DNA of 64,000 bases from NCBI RefSeq assembly GCF_900215575.1, contig NZ_OBEJ01000001.1, forward strand, positions 310,001 to 374,000. The letters run 5' to 3'. Below, piece by piece: positions 1,096 through 10,956 of this stretch (positions within the stretch are counted from its first letter, which is position 1; every line of letters begins with the position of its first letter). A program made the position numbers and the translations under genes. The notes beneath the pieces are model-generated. The model did not search any database and was not told the DNA's origin. It worked only from the letters and a program-made list of their open reading frames with translations. This DNA is from Natronoarchaeum philippinense (GTDB taxonomy: Archaea; Halobacteriota; Halobacteria; Halobacteriales; Natronoarchaeaceae).

Positions 1096-1284
1096 ATGCC
1101 CAAGACGACCGTTACGAAGACCACGAGTACCACCACCAACTCCGACGGTGAAGACCGAACTGTCGAGCAGTATCGAACGACTGTTCCCAAGGGCATTGCC
1201 GAGGCGATGGACCTCGCGGGAGCACGTGTCGAGTGGAACATCAAGAGCGGGAACACGCTCGAAATCACAGTCACCGATGAGTGA
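1096..1284 (+). CDS. AbrB/SpoVT-type DNA-binding protein
   Basis: A 62-residue protein whose C-terminal half fits the AbrB/MazE swapped-hairpin fold: a strand pattern with TVPKGIAEAMDL (the usual V-P-K-x-(I/V)-R/A core), then GARVEW and LEITVTDE. The N-terminal 20 residues are Thr/Ser-rich. Such proteins are dimeric transcription factors or antitoxins. It is the first gene of a three-gene operon and overlaps the recombinase gene by 8 bases (1277-1284). A repeat array lies directly upstream, consistent with autoregulation. No toxin-like partner is seen, so a regulatory role for the recombinase operon is more likely. Confidence 0.75.
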   Translation: MPKTTVTKTTSTTTNSDGEDRTVEQYRTTVPKGIAEAMDLAGARVEWNIKSGNTLEITVTDE

Positions 1285-2065
1285 CGCCACCACCAGCAAG
1301 GCGCTCGCGGTCATTCGACGATCGCAAGGCGACGAGGATGGTGCCAGCCTTCGCCTCCAGCGCGAACAGGTGCCTTCGCTCGCGAGCGACCTTGCCGACG
1401 AGTACGATGTCGTTGACCTAGGTGTCCACACTGGATTTAGCATACTCTCGCGAGACAAGGACGACCCGAGAATTGACGATAACGACGAGATCCTCAACGC
1501 GATCGATCGCGTACGAGCTGGAGAGTACGACCACGTGGTCGCCTGGGACGACTCCAGACTGGCCCGCGACGACTTTTTCGCGGAATGGCGGCGTGCAGCT
1601 GCCTCGGGCAGCGCCGAGTTCGCATTCGTCGCTGGAGACGTTGATGTCGACAGTATGGAACATGGCGTTCGCCGAACAGTCGAAACCGCAATCAAACGCG
1701 AGGAAATCAAGAAAGCTCGGGAGGCTGTGAACGACCGCGAACAGCGAGCAATGTGGAACTCCCGGCCACCGGTCGGTCTCGAGTTCGACGACGCGCGCGA
1801 GTATCTGGTGGCAAGTAAGCAGTTCGACACCGTCGTGGACGCGCTCGCAATGCGCGCCGACGGCGTGTCGTATCGTTCGATCGCAGACGAGACCGGACTC
1901 TCCCGCGGAGCGATTGAGCGGTGGGTCAACCACGTTGAGGACCGAGCGCAGTCATGCCGCGATGGCGGTACCGCACGTACGCTCCTCGACGCCGCCCCGG
2001 ACGACGCAATTGACGACTATGAGGGAGACAACCTGTCTGCCACCAGTGGGGGTGAGGCAGCGTGA
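1277..2065 (+). CDS. Serine recombinase (resolvase/invertase family)
   Basis: A 262-residue protein. The ATG at 1277 overlaps the end of the AbrB gene and starts right before the catalytic domain; an upstream in-frame ATG at 1148 would lie inside that gene. The N-terminal domain (about 8-150) has the family landmarks: VIRRSQ with the catalytic Ser, LRLQREQ, a GVHTGFS loop, and AWDDSRLAR, matching the usual DRLxR motif. A C-terminal helix-turn-helix (GVSYRSIADETGLSRGAIERWV) should bind DNA. It probably catalyses site-specific recombination for the mobile element (resolution, inversion or integration). It is much shorter than large phage serine integrases. Confidence 0.85.
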   Translation: MSDATTSKALAVIRRSQGDEDGASLRLQREQVPSLASDLADEYDVVDLGVHTGFSILSRDKDDPRIDDNDEILNAIDRVRAGEYDHVVAWDDSRLARDDFFAEWRRAAASGSAEFAFVAGDVDVDSMEHGVRRTVETAIKREEIKKAREAVNDREQRAMWNSRPPVGLEFDDAREYLVASKQFDTVVDALAMRADGVSYRSIADETGLSRGAIERWVNHVEDRAQSCRDGGTARTLLDAAPDDAIDDYEGDNLSATSGGEAA

Positions 2066-4427: not shown

Positions 4428-7400
4428 TCAATCAGCAGACGAGCGTGCAGGCATTTTTTCTTGTGAGACGGCGGCAGAGAGGTTTTGAGCAAGTGCGTCC
4501 CAGTCGGCAGGCGACGTTGGTGGAATATAGGAGGGCGTCTCGTCCACTTTGAAGCTGGCGTTATTGGTCATAACTAGTAACGCTCGCTTCAAAGTGGATT
4601 TCTCGAGTCGAAGCTGGTAGCCTTCTCGAGGAATATAGTCTCCTTCCGCCAGTAGTCCGAGGTTCTCGAAGTCGTCCACCCAATTGGAGATCGTTCTTGT
4701 CGAGACATCGATCCCGCAGTCCTCAGCGAAGTCTTCCAAGTCTCCTCTGGTAAAGCACAACGTTCCGCTCTGCTCCTTGAAGGGGAAGCTCTGGGGGTCC
4801 GGCGATTGGTCGCAGGCGGCATTGGACAAGTGGTGGAGGAGATCAATTGCGCGGGGGGTGACTGGGAGACGCTGTCGCATTGGCGCGGCGAGATCGTCAA
4901 GTTCGACCAGTCGGTCGACGGGCAGAGAGGTTGGGACGTTCGTGATCAGGTAGGCGTGTTTCGTTTCATCGGCGAGAATGGGGCGAATCCTGTGGACCGC
5001 CTGTACGAGCTCTTTTTCACGTGTTTCACGGAATAGAGCGCCGATGAGGCCCGAATAGTGCTTCGTCGGGACTGCACGTCCACACCCATCTTCATCTTCG
5101 TAATTGAGCTTTCGGTACACAGGCGGGTTCGCAGCAAGCTCCCCCTCATTCCGTCTGGTACTGCATTCCTTCCCGCCTGCTCGAAGATCGTCGCGATGTT
5201 GGGCAAGCAATTCGGCTTCAGTCTTGAGGTCTGAAATGTGCGGGTGCGGGGCGCCAATGCAGAAGACTGCATCACATCCAGTACGGTTTAGCCCACGTGC
5301 GGCGTGGTAGTGGAGGTGTTCACTGTTCGGTGGGAGGTCGAACTTGCTCTCGAGATCCTGCCGCATAACGAACAGCGGCTGGTCAAACTGTCGTCCAGCC
5401 TCGTCGATAGTCGCCTGGATTCTTTCACGAAGTGAGTCTGACTTCTGCACGGTCCCCCCGTGATACTGACCATCGGTTATCTGCGTCAGTACCATGTCGA
5501 CCTCAAGGGTTTCGTCGCCAGTGATGAGTGGCTCAGGATCGCCGAAGAGTGCGCCGATACGCTCGGGTGTCGCCGTGGCATCAAGAATAAGTGGCGAGGA
5601 TGGGAGATCAGATAGGAGTGGAAGGGACCGGAAATAGAGTCTCTTGCTACCGAGTTCGACATCTGCTCGCGCCTGTTCAGTTTGCTTTTGAATGAAACTG
5701 CTCTCGTCTTCTCTCCAGTTACACTTTTCACAGACGCGAGTTCCGCGCTCATCAACTGCGAGTTGCGTCGTGCAGCGCGGGCAGTGTGACAATTTGAAGG
5801 GGAAAGCGATCGCTTTGGAAAGTGGTTCGCGAGGAAGTCCGGCCTCAATTGCAGCAGCGATAAGCGCATCGAATGCTAGCGGAACACCGTTCCAATTACC
5901 GTCCTCGATACGCGCCAGAATCGTCTCGTTGAATTTGATTTTCGCCTTCGCAAAGGCTTCGCCGTACTGCCAGGGTTGGTCCTTCGAGGGGCGTTTGAAC
6001 TCGCGATGATGGCCAGCTACATCGTTGCGAGTCTCGTAGGATGCCCACCAGCTTTGAGGAGGTTGAACGTCAACTAACGATCCTCCGTTACTCAGAGCTT
6101 CCGCGATCCTGCCGGCGAACTGGCCAACCGCTTCCAGCGTACGAGTTGCAGCTGATTTCTTGTTCGCGTTTGTTTCGCCGATTTCAGTGAGCGTCGTTTC
6201 AAGCTGAAGCAGCTGGTTCGCAGAAAGTGTTCGTTCTGAAATCAGTGATCGCGGCTTCTCATCGACAAGGACGTCACGACTCTCATTCGCAACTGTCTTT
6301 AGTTGGAGATACTCATGGACGCCGACGATAGCATCCTCGTATTCGAGATCATCGAACTGTCGAAGATATGCGCATTCATCTCCTTCATGCGGGTCCAGTA
6401 GCAGGTGTGCTTTGACCGGGCCAACTTCGTCAACGACGCGTTCGAACCGTTCTCGAAGCGGATTATCAGGCGGACAGTTGTAAATCGGGCACATCGACGG
6501 GCACCGGCTAGTCTCCCCGTGGGTCGGGCATTGCTCGTCCTGATGGTCCGCGTCCATGCATTCGTTGTACTGTTTCTGTTCGGCCCCTTTCAGGTGGTAC
6601 ACGTCGTCGGGGGTAGCGTCATCTTTGATGAACTCACGAGCCTTCTCATGCATACCGAACAGGATACTGTACGGGCGTTCGCGCTGGGCCGCCGCGATTG
6701 CAGCGTTCGTGGTTTTTCCGGTCCCGGGCGGGTCAGCGAAAATCGTGACTGAGTCGGTGTCGATAAACTCGCCGTAGCGTTCTCCTTGGAGGGCTTCCCA
6801 GCGTGCTTCGACATCGAACGACGTTGACTCGTCTACTGGTGGCGCACAAGATTGAATCTGATATTGGGTAGTCAGCAAATCAGGCTGCTCAAGTTCCCAT
6901 CCATGATCGATGTCGCGTTCTTTGAGGGCCTCTAGAACCGATATTCGTTTGTCATTGTCGGGAAAGTCGACATAGGTTCCTGATGAGGTTTCCTTTTCGA
7001 CGAAGTCGTCAGTTTCGCAGATTCCAAGGGCGACTGCCGCTTTGCGTAGGACCCACAGCGGGGTTCGATCGTATTTATCTCCGTTCGGCCGTTCTGTTCC
7101 GGCCTCAGGTACCCATATTGGGATTGAATATCCACGATCCCGGAGGGCATCTACTGCCTGAGGGAATTCAGCCCCAGTTAATTCGTCGTCATCACTAATT
7201 CCGTCTGCTAGAGCAACAAGAACGACCGCGTTTCCATTCAGGCTTTGCCCAGTATCGTGGAACTTATCACGATCGGCGAAGGTCGACTGCCCAGAATTGT
7301 GTTCCTCGTGCCATGGCGGACCGAATCGGGGCGGCGTCTTTTCGCCGTGCCAGACGTCAGCAACCTGCTCTGCCAGTTCACGAACATCAATGTTTTCTAT

Positions 7401-8588
7401 AGCTGCTTCAACGAGGCTTCGATCAGTAGTTAACTGCAAGCCATCTAGTGATTCAGATAGCTCCTGCCGATGTTCCTCCGCTTCGTGCCAGCGCTTTTGA
7501 CGGTACTTTTCTTGTTCGCGTTTATCCTCGACCCACGTTTGGAGCGCCTCTTTCCAGGAATCTGCGTTTTCGATATAATTTGGCCAAAGAGATGCGACGA
7601 CGGACCCAACTCGGCTCGTATGTTCTACACTGGTGACCGCATTTGCCCACGTTCGCACCTTATTCAGTAGCTCGGCGTCAACATCCTCAATCGGCGTGAC
7701 CGAGTACGAGACTGCTTCCGGATCAATGGGAGCAACCACGGCATCATGGTCCCCGTGGAGGGAAAGCGGCGCCTTGTACTGGCGGTTTTTGTTGTTTGCC
7801 CAGTCGGGATCAATAACGCGCTTGGCACCAGGGACGCGGTTGTTGACACGTCGTTCAGCATCTCTGAGCCAGTCGTTTGATCGGTCAATAAATTCTTGGA
7901 AGACCCATCCACGAGCTTCCGGGTCATCGTCGAAGAGGTCAGCAATCGGGAGTGTAACACTGGGTGCGCCAAGAATGTAGGCGCCGCCGACGGAATCAAG
8001 CATGAATATCGCGTCGTATCCTCCGTACAGAGCCGCAAATTCGTCAGCATAGGCTTGGAGAGCTTCCTCAGCTGTGGCGCGTGTAGATTTAGAGAGGTTA
8101 CCACGCTTGGGCTTTAGGTCGTCAGCGAGGTCTATGTCTCCCCAAGCTCCGACGGCACGAAGATCAGCTGCATCGGGCGTAGGTGATTTTCCCGGTTTGT
8201 ATTGGTAGTTCGTGCCATCAAGAGTCGCTGCTGTCCAATTATTCATTGAATTTGGCGATTTGTAGGACGTCAGGACGTACAGAGACCGGTCAACCTGACC
8301 GACTACGTGATCGAAGTCTTGATGAATCGTCTGCATCCGACGCTTCTTCTCAAAGCCGTTCTCAATCTCGTCTACGTTGTCGTTCTCACGGGTCCGGTAC
8401 CACCCCTTCTTGTCGTAGACGAGCCCTGTCGGATTATTGAGTACCGTACTTAACGGTTTGAGTGCAGGTTTGATTCGTTCGTAATGCGTCTGGATGTCCG
8501 TGTGGGTGAGCGAATCGGACGCGTCTATGGTGGGAGGGCGGTTTTCGTTCGACATGTAGTTGCGAAGCCCGACGCCCGAAGACGCCAC
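4428..8588 (-). CDS. Primase-helicase replication protein (AEP-like N-terminus plus SF2-type helicase)
   Basis: A 1386-residue protein (1375 if ATG 8555 is used rather than GTG 8588). The N-terminal third resembles archaeo-eukaryotic primases: WGDIDL (about 149-154) fits the metal-binding hhDhD motif, followed by a GGAYILG strand and KAPLSLHGDHD (about 272-282), similar to the primase S-x-H region. A Walker A loop, DPPGTGKTT, lies near 619-627. A Cys cluster (about 677-705, with CPTH, CPSMC and YNCPP) and a zinc ribbon (CPRC...CEKC) follow. VDEKPR resembles a Walker B box and LDATATPE an SF2 motif III. The C-terminus looks like a winged helix. It probably initiates or drives replication of the element. 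The assignment of both enzyme halves rests on short motifs. Confidence 0.7.
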   Translation of the reverse strand: MASSGVGLRNYMSNENRPPTIDASDSLTHTDIQTHYERIKPALKPLSTVLNNPTGLVYDKKGWYRTRENDNVDEIENGFEKKRRMQTIHQDFDHVVGQVDRSLYVLTSYKSPNSMNNWTAATLDGTNYQYKPGKSPTPDAADLRAVGAWGDIDLADDLKPKRGNLSKSTRATAEEALQAYADEFAALYGGYDAIFMLDSVGGAYILGAPSVTLPIADLFDDDPEARGWVFQEFIDRSNDWLRDAERRVNNRVPGAKRVIDPDWANNKNRQYKAPLSLHGDHDAVVAPIDPEAVSYSVTPIEDVDAELLNKVRTWANAVTSVEHTSRVGSVVASLWPNYIENADSWKEALQTWVEDKREQEKYRQKRWHEAEEHRQELSESLDGLQLTTDRSLVEAAIENIDVRELAEQVADVWHGEKTPPRFGPPWHEEHNSGQSTFADRDKFHDTGQSLNGNAVVLVALADGISDDDELTGAEFPQAVDALRDRGYSIPIWVPEAGTERPNGDKYDRTPLWVLRKAAVALGICETDDFVEKETSSGTYVDFPDNDKRISVLEALKERDIDHGWELEQPDLLTTQYQIQSCAPPVDESTSFDVEARWEALQGERYGEFIDTDSVTIFADPPGTGKTTNAAIAAAQRERPYSILFGMHEKAREFIKDDATPDDVYHLKGAEQKQYNECMDADHQDEQCPTHGETSRCPSMCPIYNCPPDNPLRERFERVVDEVGPVKAHLLLDPHEGDECAYLRQFDDLEYEDAIVGVHEYLQLKTVANESRDVLVDEKPRSLISERTLSANQLLQLETTLTEIGETNANKKSAATRTLEAVGQFAGRIAEALSNGGSLVDVQPPQSWWASYETRNDVAGHHREFKRPSKDQPWQYGEAFAKAKIKFNETILARIEDGNWNGVPLAFDALIAAAIEAGLPREPLSKAIAFPFKLSHCPRCTTQLAVDERGTRVCEKCNWREDESSFIQKQTEQARADVELGSKRLYFRSLPLLSDLPSSPLILDATATPERIGALFGDPEPLITGDETLEVDMVLTQITDGQYHGGTVQKSDSLRERIQATIDEAGRQFDQPLFVMRQDLESKFDLPPNSEHLHYHAARGLNRTGCDAVFCIGAPHPHISDLKTEAELLAQHRDDLRAGGKECSTRRNEGELAANPPVYRKLNYEDEDGCGRAVPTKHYSGLIGALFRETREKELVQAVHRIRPILADETKHAYLITNVPTSLPVDRLVELDDLAAPMRQRLPVTPRAIDLLHHLSNAACDQSPDPQSFPFKEQSGTLCFTRGDLEDFAEDCGIDVSTRTISNWVDDFENLGLLAEGDYIPREGYQLRLEKSTLKRALLVMTNNASFKVDETPSYIPPTSPADWDALAQNLSAAVSQEKMPARSSAD

Positions 8589-8817: not shown

Positions 8818-9405
8818 CTATGGGTCCTTAAGCGTCCATTCTTGGGAGTCGGTCAGTTGTATAGTATCGACAGCCGAAAAGTGAGGTCGGATTAGTTCCT
8901 GCCACCACGTAGTTGGTGTCTCATATCCAGCTTGGTGACTGGGCCAGACGTCGTAAATGAACTCTCGCTTCGATACTGGTCGCCCCTTGTCAGAGAGGTA
9001 TTCATATGCTGCTCGTACTGCGCGTTGTCGGTCCTGAACTCGAGGCTCATATCGTTCTTCAGGTTGTATAGCGAGATATTGGTCCATGTTTGTCCAGTCG
9101 TGCACTGCAACACGCGTGCCATGTGGTTTCTCCGGGTCTAATTGCGAAGCTATTGAGGAATCCCGATGAATCGATGGGTAGTGCCAAGTAATGCTTTTGA
9201 GCCACCAAACACAACCAGATTGTCCAACGTCCTTCTCCACCAGTATGTCTCGCTGGCTTAACGAGGACAAACGGTCTAATATTGCCCGCTGACTTATCGG
9301 AAGATCACTTGCAACTTCTGCTGTCGTGAGAACAGGGCTGTCTGCCTCCAAGAAGCATTCGAGAATCTGGTCGTCGTCAACTTGTTGTGGCCGCCCTCCA
9401 GACAT
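8818..9405 (-). CDS. Winged-helix transcriptional regulator
   Basis: A 195-residue protein. Residues about 10-68 form a clear winged helix: ILECFLEADSPVLTTAEVAS, then DLPISQRAILDRLSSLSQRD as the recognition region, and a wing ending in CVWWLK. The C-terminal two-thirds (WTNMDQYL onward) is of unknown fold, with KREFIYDVWPSHQ and TTWWQELIRPHF. Two palindromes lie within 65 bases upstream of its ATG, consistent with self-regulation. It is upstream of, and in the same direction as, the replication gene, so it may control it or copy number. That role is inferred. Confidence 0.7.
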   Translation of the reverse strand: MSGGRPQQVDDDQILECFLEADSPVLTTAEVASDLPISQRAILDRLSSLSQRDILVEKDVGQSGCVWWLKSITWHYPSIHRDSSIASQLDPEKPHGTRVAVHDWTNMDQYLAIQPEERYEPRVQDRQRAVRAAYEYLSDKGRPVSKREFIYDVWPSHQAGYETPTTWWQELIRPHFSAVDTIQLTDSQEWTLKDP

Positions 9406-9564: not shown

Positions 9565-9798
9565 TACGGTCATTGCTCTCACCGACTCTTGGATCGTTCC
9601 CGACGACGACAACTGATCGTCGTCGTGAAGTACAGCCGGGCGATGCCACGCCCGGCAACGAAGCGCGCACTCCACCAATGCAAGCCACGTACGCGCCTAG
9701 AGCAGAGTATCGCTCGCAAATCAATAAATCCCCGGTCTACAGCGAAGCAGCTCCCGCGACGAATGGACGGTCGAACTCGGAACGGGGGTGGTTATAAC

Positions 9799-10956
9799 GT
9801 GAACGTCGAACCAGACCACGGAGCTGCTGACAACGCGGAAAATCTAGACACGATTCGCTCTGAACTAGACACGATCCGCCAGAAACTCGATGAAGGAAGT
9901 ACGCTCCAGCCGATCGGGCCCGAAGAGGCAGTAGAAGTCTACTTGGAAGACCGTCGTGAGGAGCTCGTCGAATCGACGGTTCAGGACTACCAGCGGAGCT
10001 TGGAGTTCTTCATCGAGTTCTGCGGTCTCGAGGGGATCGACAACCTCAACACGCTCACCGGCCGGACGTTGCGCGAATATCGAGCCTGGCGGCGGACTGA
10101 GTCGTCACATAAGACGCTCAGTCCGAAGACGATGCGGGACGAACTATACCTAATGAGGAACTTCCTCAAGCTCCTCGAGGACATCGAAGGAGTAGAAGCG
10201 GGCCTGGCCGATAAAGTCCAGACCCCAGAGCTCAGCTACGAAGACGAAGTCCGGGAAGAACACCTGTCGGCAGACCGCGCGAAGGAAATCATCCAGTATC
10301 TGGAAGACTACGAGTATGCAACGACCGAACACGTCGTCTGGCTTCTACTCGGAGCCATAGGCTGTCGTCGAGGCGGCGTTCACTCGCTTGACCTCAAAGA
10401 CATCCACACCGATCGCAACGAACTCTTCATCGAGTTCTGCCATCGGCCTGATCAAGGGACGACGCTGAAGAACAAGAAAGCTGGAGAGCGAGAAGTGAAC
10501 ATCTCCGAAAACGCGGCAGAAGTCATCGACGACTACATCGAAAACAACCGTACTGAAACAACCGATGACTACGGTCGCGAACCCCTGATCACGACCACAC
10601 ACGGGCGAATGGCAAAGTCGACAATCAGCAAGTACGTTTATAAGTGGACTCGTCCATGCGAAATCGGCAAGGACTGTCCACACGGCCGCGATCAAGCTGA
10701 CTGCGAAGATGCACAGACCATCGACAACGCCTCCAACTGTCCGTCTTCGCTATCAACTCACACCGTCAGGAAGGGCTACCTGACAGCTGAGAGGTCGAAC
10801 AACATCCCGATCGAAATGCTGGCTGACCGCTGCGACGTCAGCCCAGAAGTTCTCAAGAAGCACTACGACCAGCGTGACAAGACCGATCGACGAGAGCTGC
10901 GTCAGGAAATTTACGAGGAAGTCTACGGCAACAGCCAGGGAGGGTATCTGAGCTAA
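9799..10956 (+). CDS. Tyrosine recombinase (XerC/D-like integrase)
   Basis: A 385-residue protein. The frame is open further upstream, but GTG 9799 is preferred because the preceding residues are basic and unlike the family and a GGGGGTGG stretch lies about 10 bases upstream. A coiled N-terminus (LDTIRSELDTIRQKLDEG) precedes a core-binding SAM-like domain (about 40-145). The catalytic domain shows the first Arg in GCRRGGVHSLD, HTVR as the H-x-x-R box, and the nucleophile Tyr in KKHYDQ. Between these boxes is a Cys cluster (CEIGKDCPH...C...C) likely to bind zinc. It should integrate or excise the element. It is followed closely by two unknown genes. Confidence 0.88.
   Translation: MNVEPDHGAADNAENLDTIRSELDTIRQKLDEGSTLQPIGPEEAVEVYLEDRREELVESTVQDYQRSLEFFIEFCGLEGIDNLNTLTGRTLREYRAWRRTESSHKTLSPKTMRDELYLMRNFLKLLEDIEGVEAGLADKVQTPELSYEDEVREEHLSADRAKEIIQYLEDYEYATTEHVVWLLLGAIGCRRGGVHSLDLKDIHTDRNELFIEFCHRPDQGTTLKNKKAGEREVNISENAAEVIDDYIENNRTETTDDYGREPLITTTHGRMAKSTISKYVYKWTRPCEIGKDCPHGRDQADCEDAQTIDNASNCPSSLSTHTVRKGYLTAERSNNIPIEMLADRCDVSPEVLKKHYDQRDKTDRRELRQEIYEEVYGNSQGGYLS

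Follow-up and report, generated by a model that had tools for sequence, protein, structure and literature searches.

A 64,000-nucleotide stretch of the genome of Natronoarchaeum philippinense (contig NZ_OBEJ01000001.1, positions 310001-374000; hereafter the window) contains a long gene whose product is recognised in neither half by any Pfam, PHROG, NCBIfam or PDB sequence model, and the question that it raises is what so large a protein may do for the DNA that carries it. A first-pass annotation, made from the letters alone, had read it as one chain of 1386 residues joining an archaeo-eukaryotic primase (AEP) region, a superfamily 2 (SF2) helicase with a cysteine cluster after the Walker A loop, a zinc ribbon and a winged-helix tail. 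On further analysis this domain plan was retained, with a correction to the extent of the helicase: one chain combines a primase module with an XPD/DinG-type SF2 helicase module, the primase part being less firm than the helicase part. From this architecture and the company kept by its relatives, we infer that the fusion is quite probably a single-chain primase-helicase serving as the replication protein of an integrated plasmid- or virus-like element, and it is likely the element's own, putative, replication initiator.

One frame, two modules

The gene occupies exactly the span first annotated, 4428-8588, as a single uninterrupted frame on the minus strand (from 8588 to 4428, with 1386 codons counted from GTG 8588); the plus strand of the same stretch has stops throughout. 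An in-frame ATG at 8555 (residue 12) matches the N-termini of relatives better than the GTG does, and is by this comparison probably the true start, giving 1375 residues. The gene is single-copy in the 3.16 Mb host genome. Searches with the whole protein against Pfam, PHROGs, NCBIfam and PDB sequences gave chance-level matches only, antibody-Fc and GvpN matches being set aside as noise, and profiles of each half gave no match among PDB sequences. The frame is a real protein gene, far beyond chance, because parts of it have homologues in 32 of the 292 haloarchaeal-class genomes of a first sample (two of the 32 being marginal) and because a full-length homologue is known from another genome.

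The matches in these 32 genomes, other than the query itself, always cover a single half or fragments of a single half. Residues 26-570 match stand-alone proteins of about 684 residues and parts of frames of 960-1894 residues, and residues ~570-1350 match the C-termini of proteins of about 1240-1330 residues. In a sliding comparison the best match flips sharply from primase-type to helicase-type relatives at residues ~565-580. A second sample, of 392 genomes, yielded in one genome of another family a further full-length fusion (G352:C34), a 1520-residue frame of 41% identity, which aligns over query residues 28-1350 with every motif intact. Since this second genome has both halves in one frame, the fusion is real and no accident of assembly, and an assembly or annotation artefact was ruled out. 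Trees separate the primase halves of the two full-length fusions; the approximately unbiased test does not reject their forming a clade (p 0.088). As judged from these alignments, the fusion most likely arose by the joining of two independently mobile modules at residues ~565-580.

The helicase half and the primase half

For the helicase half an XPD/DinG-type fold is firmly predicted. The AlphaFold2 model, built from 17 sequences (predicted local distance difference test score, pLDDT, 78; predicted template modelling score 0.74), contains the two RecA domains of that fold. All 10 Foldseek matches in the PDB with E < 1e-3 are XPD or DinG, and VIA-align superposes the model on DinG (6fws) with Z 18.3 over 443 residues (root-mean-square deviation 4.8). 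Chromosomal proteins carrying DEAD_2 and Helicase_C_2 are among those retrieved by the family profile, and hhalign to chromosomal XPD/DinG gives E 1.3e-4 at motif I/Ia, with weaker collinear matches near motif II and GxPxP. The order of motifs I - Cys cluster - II - III - V - VI is kept. No match to DEAD_2 (PF06733) or Helicase_C_2 (PF13307) was obtained in Pfam at E<=1, and the module is therefore called XPD/DinG-like here and not filed in the curated families. The first-pass annotation had placed a RecA pair around residues 610-1000; the pair is present, but it spans ~600-1240, RecA2 itself lying at ~1020-1240, with the zinc ribbon inserted between motif II and the counterpart of the 'SAT' motif. 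The zinc ribbon proposed earlier keeps all four of its cysteines in every sequence compared, and the winged-helix tail is likewise predicted, from the model and from matches to Fur, to the C-terminal domain of ORC2 and to other winged helices, which are of high probability but weak E.

Set beside the XPD/DinG (Rad3) family of iron-sulfur (Fe-S) SF2 helicases (DinG 6fws, SaXPD 3crv, CasDinG), the module shares the RecA pair, motif order and predicted fold, as well as a Cys cluster between motifs I and II, VxxHxYL before motif II, a D/S-AT motif III, GxPhP and QxxxRxR. Unlike those proteins, it has VDE and not DEAH as motif II, an inserted zinc ribbon, a C-terminal winged helix and an attached primase, besides lacking the Pfam matches. 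XPD and DinG hold their Fe-S cluster between motifs I and II. At the corresponding place C677, C687, C696, C700 and C739 are conserved in 19, 19, 14, 18 and 16 of the 19 sequences covering the region, and after C739, with the spacing seen in XPD, come VGVHEYL and VDE in turn; C739 occupies the place at which XPD has its last ligand, ahead of an NYxxL-like segment. The conservation pattern makes an Fe-S cluster probable here; the first-pass annotation had likewise compared the cysteines with those of iron-sulfur helicases. Separately, a stand-alone XPD-like protein of 644 residues was observed (L092:12-1946 and five other genomes), with Cys before motif II, an HTH-like (helix-turn-helix) C-terminus and no Pfam match, which is perhaps another mobile-element helicase.

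The N-terminal half is very probably an AEP primase. The hhDhD metal ligands of motif I are present as D151/D153. Motif II reads S-V-G-G-A-Y, with an invariant Tyr where the S-x-x-x-x-H of AEPs has His, and motif III, an Asp followed by an Arg/Lys-rich strand, reads D262..NN.NR..K.P.S.H. The invariant positions that follow the AEP pattern (D151-x-D153; S199-x-x-G-x-Y204; D262..N..R..K..S.H278) reach as far as the Methanosarcinales virus vir515. Variation of the motif II residue among His, Gln and Tyr has been reported in AEPs, Tyr occurring in the PrimHYQ family (Kazlauskas et al. 2018, PMC5862659). In hhalign comparisons with haloarchaeal PriS, motif III falls in register (RqyKaPLSiH against RLIRLPGSLH, within PriS TTDtkRLIRLPGSLHG) at E 0.0018, three controls of the same comparison giving E 0.44-0.67. 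The structure alignment for this half was limited because scans of viral contigs yielded so few sequences, namely one haloarchaeal contig (at several places) and vir515-like contigs only. Even so, the core of the model (model residues ~131-255, chain ~145-269) is mostly at pLDDT 70-95, and the weak model as a whole is aligned by VIA-align best to a CRISPR-associated Prim-Pol (CAPP, Z 8.4), PriS, Prim-PolC and PrimPol. A structure comparison with primases and XPD/DinG, proposed at the outset, thus places the helicase clearly with XPD/DinG and the primase nearest to AEPs, the primase model being too weak to decide the matter. The absence of a primase fold from the first 300 residues, or of a RecA pair, had been named as grounds for abandoning the reading; neither absence was found, within the same weakness of the primase model.

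The assignment as a putative primase is supported by the motifs, the architecture and the weak, AEP-like model. PriS and other AEP primases, including the families of mobile genetic elements (PMC5862659), share with this half the DxD, S-x-G-G-x-[Y] and D..NR..K.P.S.H motifs in that order, the PriS-like motif III and the fusion to a helicase and winged helix. Unlike them, the fusion has Tyr in motif II (for which PrimHYQ is a precedent), is recognised by no AEP model, and belongs by sequence comparison to a separate AEP branch, from haloarchaeal elements and methanogen viruses. The features of the gene and its neighbours are collected below.

Table. Features of the fusion gene and of two neighbouring genes (window coordinates)
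Feature	Positions	Strand	Basis
Whole fusion gene	4428..8588	-	Intact frame; second full-length homologue
AEP-like primase domain, residues ~25-345	7554..8516	-	Motifs, PriS profile match, model
AEP motif I WGDIDL (D151, D153)	8127..8144	-	Both Asp invariant in 15 rows including virus vir515
AEP motif II DSVGGAY (Tyr204 in usual His place)	7977..7997	-	Family alignment
AEP motif III DPDWANNKNRQYKAPLSLH (D262 invariant)	7755..7811	-	PriS alignment by hhalign
Middle domain, ~385-560	6909..7436	-	Divergent forms common to both module families
Junction of the two modules, residues ~565-580	6849..6896	-	Switch of best-matching relatives
RecA1 of XPD/DinG-type helicase, ~601-790	6219..6788	-	AlphaFold2, Foldseek, VIA-align, hhalign
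Walker A PGTGKTT 621-627	6708..6728	-	Alignment
Cys cluster C677 C687 C696 C700 C739, putative Fe-S site	6372..6560	-	Conservation
Motif II VLVDEK 773-778 (VDE 775-777), VxVHEYL before it	6255..6272	-	Alignment
Zinc ribbon C936 C939 C953 C956, between motifs II and III	5721..5783	-	21/21 sequences
LDATAT 1002-1007, counterpart of SF2 'SAT' motif	5568..5585	-	Alignment
RecA2, ~1020-1240, with GAPHP 1112-1116 and motif VI QAVHRIRP 1196-1203	4869..5531	-	AlphaFold2, Foldseek, VIA-align, hhalign
Predicted winged-helix tail, ~1245-1344 (model residues 681-780)	4554..4862	-	Model and winged-helix structural matches
HTH protein, 195 residues, upstream of fusion gene	8818..9405	-	HTH_11 weak; phrog_15732 1.7e-12
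Tyrosine integrase of the element	9589..10956	+	Phage_integrase 4.5e-8; phrog_1 6e-29

Exchange of partners and the proposed role

Relatives of either half are found with other partners. On pHTUR06 (15.8 kb) the primase module is fused to D5_N/DUF5906/Pox_D5, that is, to a superfamily 3 (SF3) helicase, in the sole recognisable replication protein of that plasmid, and in a viral contig (L042:1714-5742) it is joined to another kind of SF2-like part rich in Cys (phrog_27506), as well as to an HTH. As a stand-alone protein of 684 residues it occurs, almost unchanged, on many haloarchaeal plasmids, where most copies are annotated as hypothetical. The helicase module in turn carries other AEP N-termini elsewhere (PHROG DNA primase, E to 5e-11), and in a Salinibaculum provirus and in haloviral contigs the genes for such proteins have large terminase and portal genes close by. 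Among deposited phage records, none was found to encode the helicase module. A related helicase module is held by alphaproteobacterial plasmid proteins (hhalign E 4e-19, with a 4-Cys pattern), fused in one bacterial relative (L114) to Prim-Pol PF09250 and in another (L113:1527-5186) to a TOPRIM primase (Toprim_3, DUF7146). The latter lies on a 17.9-kb Roseivivax plasmid with ParA and an integrase, of which it is apparently the sole replication protein. The same motor has a number of unrelated primases as partners, and the same primase a number of unrelated motors, a pattern that is best explained if all of these are replication proteins. There is an even chance that they form one class, spanning archaea and bacteria, of replication proteins by which mobile elements are copied with a single chain, defined by a non-hexameric XPD/DinG-type (probably Fe-S) motor and a freely exchangeable primase, be it a PriS-like AEP, a canonical Prim-Pol or a TOPRIM.

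In the working model, the protein is presumably needed for replication of the element, and binding to the origin would fall to its C-terminal winged helix, possibly together with the middle domain. The XPD/DinG-type motor, with its probable Fe-S cluster, would then open the DNA and translocate 5'->3' as a monomer, the newly exposed strand would receive primers from the PriS-like primase, and host polymerases would complete the copy, as for T7 gp4 or herpes UL5/UL52. Coupled to a primase, a motor of this polarity would run along the template of the lagging strand, as T7 gp4 and UL5/UL52 do and the SF3-AEP proteins do not. The likeness to herpesvirus UL5/UL52, an AEP primase with a non-hexameric 5'->3' helicase, is one of working and not of membership, as UL5 belongs to superfamily 1 and is a separate subunit. 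The 5'->3' polarity is assigned to the present motor by analogy, because DinG relatives translocate in this sense, as is reported for CasDinG (PMC10450177).

In the single-chain primase-helicases already known from mobile elements, the motor is either a hexamer of SF3, RepA/DnaB or MCM type or an SF2 helicase of the little-characterised UL9-like kind; here it is of XPD/DinG type, and it pairs with non-homologous primases in archaea and bacteria. The AEP-SF3 proteins of D5/pRN1 type come close, in that the same primase module is directly fused to D5/SF3 in pHTUR06. The present fusion differs in having an XPD-type motor in place of the SF3 motor, which is a hexameric AAA+ machine moving 3'->5', and unlike its pHTUR06 relative it gave no D5/SF3 match in Pfam. 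The proteins joining AEP to a UL9-like helicase (all3500 family, pVOG 1685/9714; PMC5862659) also combine an AEP with an SF2 helicase in one mobile-element protein, whereas the motor here is of XPD/DinG type with a Cys cluster; no match to Herpes_ori_bp PF02399 (UL9-type) was obtained in Pfam, and the fold search gives XPD/DinG. The described fusion partners of AEPs are SF3, RepA/DnaB, MCM, VirE, DUF927, DUF3987 and UL9-like SF2 helicases, XPD and DinG being unnamed in that survey (PMC5862659). No AEP-XPD/DinG fusion was found in the open-access literature, subscription papers including Iyer et al. 2005 lying outside that search. If the reading is true, helicases of the XPD type, which are familiar from repair, transcription and defence, would also act in replication, both in viruses of archaea and in plasmids of archaea and bacteria. 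Its confirmation would give a repair-type helicase family a role in replication, explain a set of hypothetical proteins and provide compact, testable replication modules, also of use for haloarchaeal vectors.

Several results weigh against a role in replication from an origin. The stand-alone primase module of 684 residues adjoins a VirD4-like conjugation gene on pNG600 (L033:7998-10013), and such replication need not be its constant role; moreover, the search for att repeats yielded no ends for the element, which may have lost the capacity to replicate by itself. The protein might accordingly prime or process DNA during transfer or after entry, by conjugation or virus entry, the more so as TOPRIM and Primpol primases moved along with conjugative DNA are known (PMC5512222). 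This is improbable: none of the scanned island genes could be assigned to conjugation, the present version has a helicase and a winged helix, and the helicase module is found beside tailed-virus packaging genes and on a small plasmid with no other visible replication protein. A function in defence or DNA repair is brought to mind by the Dpd-like, BrxD-like and pAgo genes on the island, by CAPP Prim-Pol as nearest structural match of the primase part, and by CasDinG, a DinG relative of type IV CRISPR (PMC10450177). We consider it very improbable, as no neighbours are conserved between this element and its relatives, several of which lie on small plasmids or beside virus packaging genes, and as the domain plan fits mobile-element replication proteins.

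The evidence for the primase itself also has its weak points. Besides the lack of any matching family model and the Tyr in place of the motif II His, the AlphaFold2 model of the domain is a weak one, with a pLDDT of 57.5 and Foldseek matches that at E about 1 are not significant. Nor was the alignment of this half with canonical plasmid AEPs by hhalign significant, a test that lacks power because those AEPs themselves fail to match PriS. That the N-terminal half is some other palm-type or an unrelated DNA-binding module is nevertheless quite improbable, given the motif set and its register with PriS, structural matches dominated by AEPs, and an AEP or TOPRIM in the same slot of the relatives. 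With regard to the metal site, some helicase relatives (L040, L032, L048) have lost several of the cluster cysteines, and five conserved residues stand where four are expected; the cluster might bind zinc, or be vestigial as in CasDinG, a variant compatible with the replication reading. It is unlikely in view of the location of the cluster at the place of the XPD/DinG Fe-S domain, with C739 at the presumed last ligand position, and of the 4-Cys pattern kept in bacterial relatives. As an observation in its own right, the relative L040:1-2631 is without C696, C700 and C739, which suggests, from sequence comparison, that certain lineages can do without the metal site.

The island around the gene

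The gene lies inside a low-GC stretch (mostly 50-60% against 60-70%), which in window coordinates extends from about -39 to +12.5 kb and may be composite. Its left edge is marked by a tRNA-Arg; a search turned up neither att repeats nor, at the right border, a second copy of the 3' end of this tRNA gene. Besides the HTH protein and the integrase given in the table, the island has a ParA gene, and no Orc1/Cdc6 gene was found within the low-GC stretch; the adjacent integrase, ParA and this negative result all speak for the proposed replication role.

Three further observations concern genes of the region. Just left of the window (contig 305756-309402), directly behind a DUF2797 gene, is a long prokaryotic Argonaute of 884 residues (PADLOC pAgo, 1185 bits). 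Contig ~274.5-301 kb holds a Dpd-like cluster, comprising a DpdH-like protein of 1058 residues, two DruE/DpdJ/DrmA-type helicases of ~1840 residues, DpdA-like proteins of 967 and 344 residues and a BrxD-like ATPase, possibly a 7-deazaguanine DNA modification or defence system in a haloarchaeon. Finally, the product of window positions 1148-2065 on the plus strand, with a resolvase-like N-terminus (E 0.0025) and an HTH, is a possible serine recombinase of the element.

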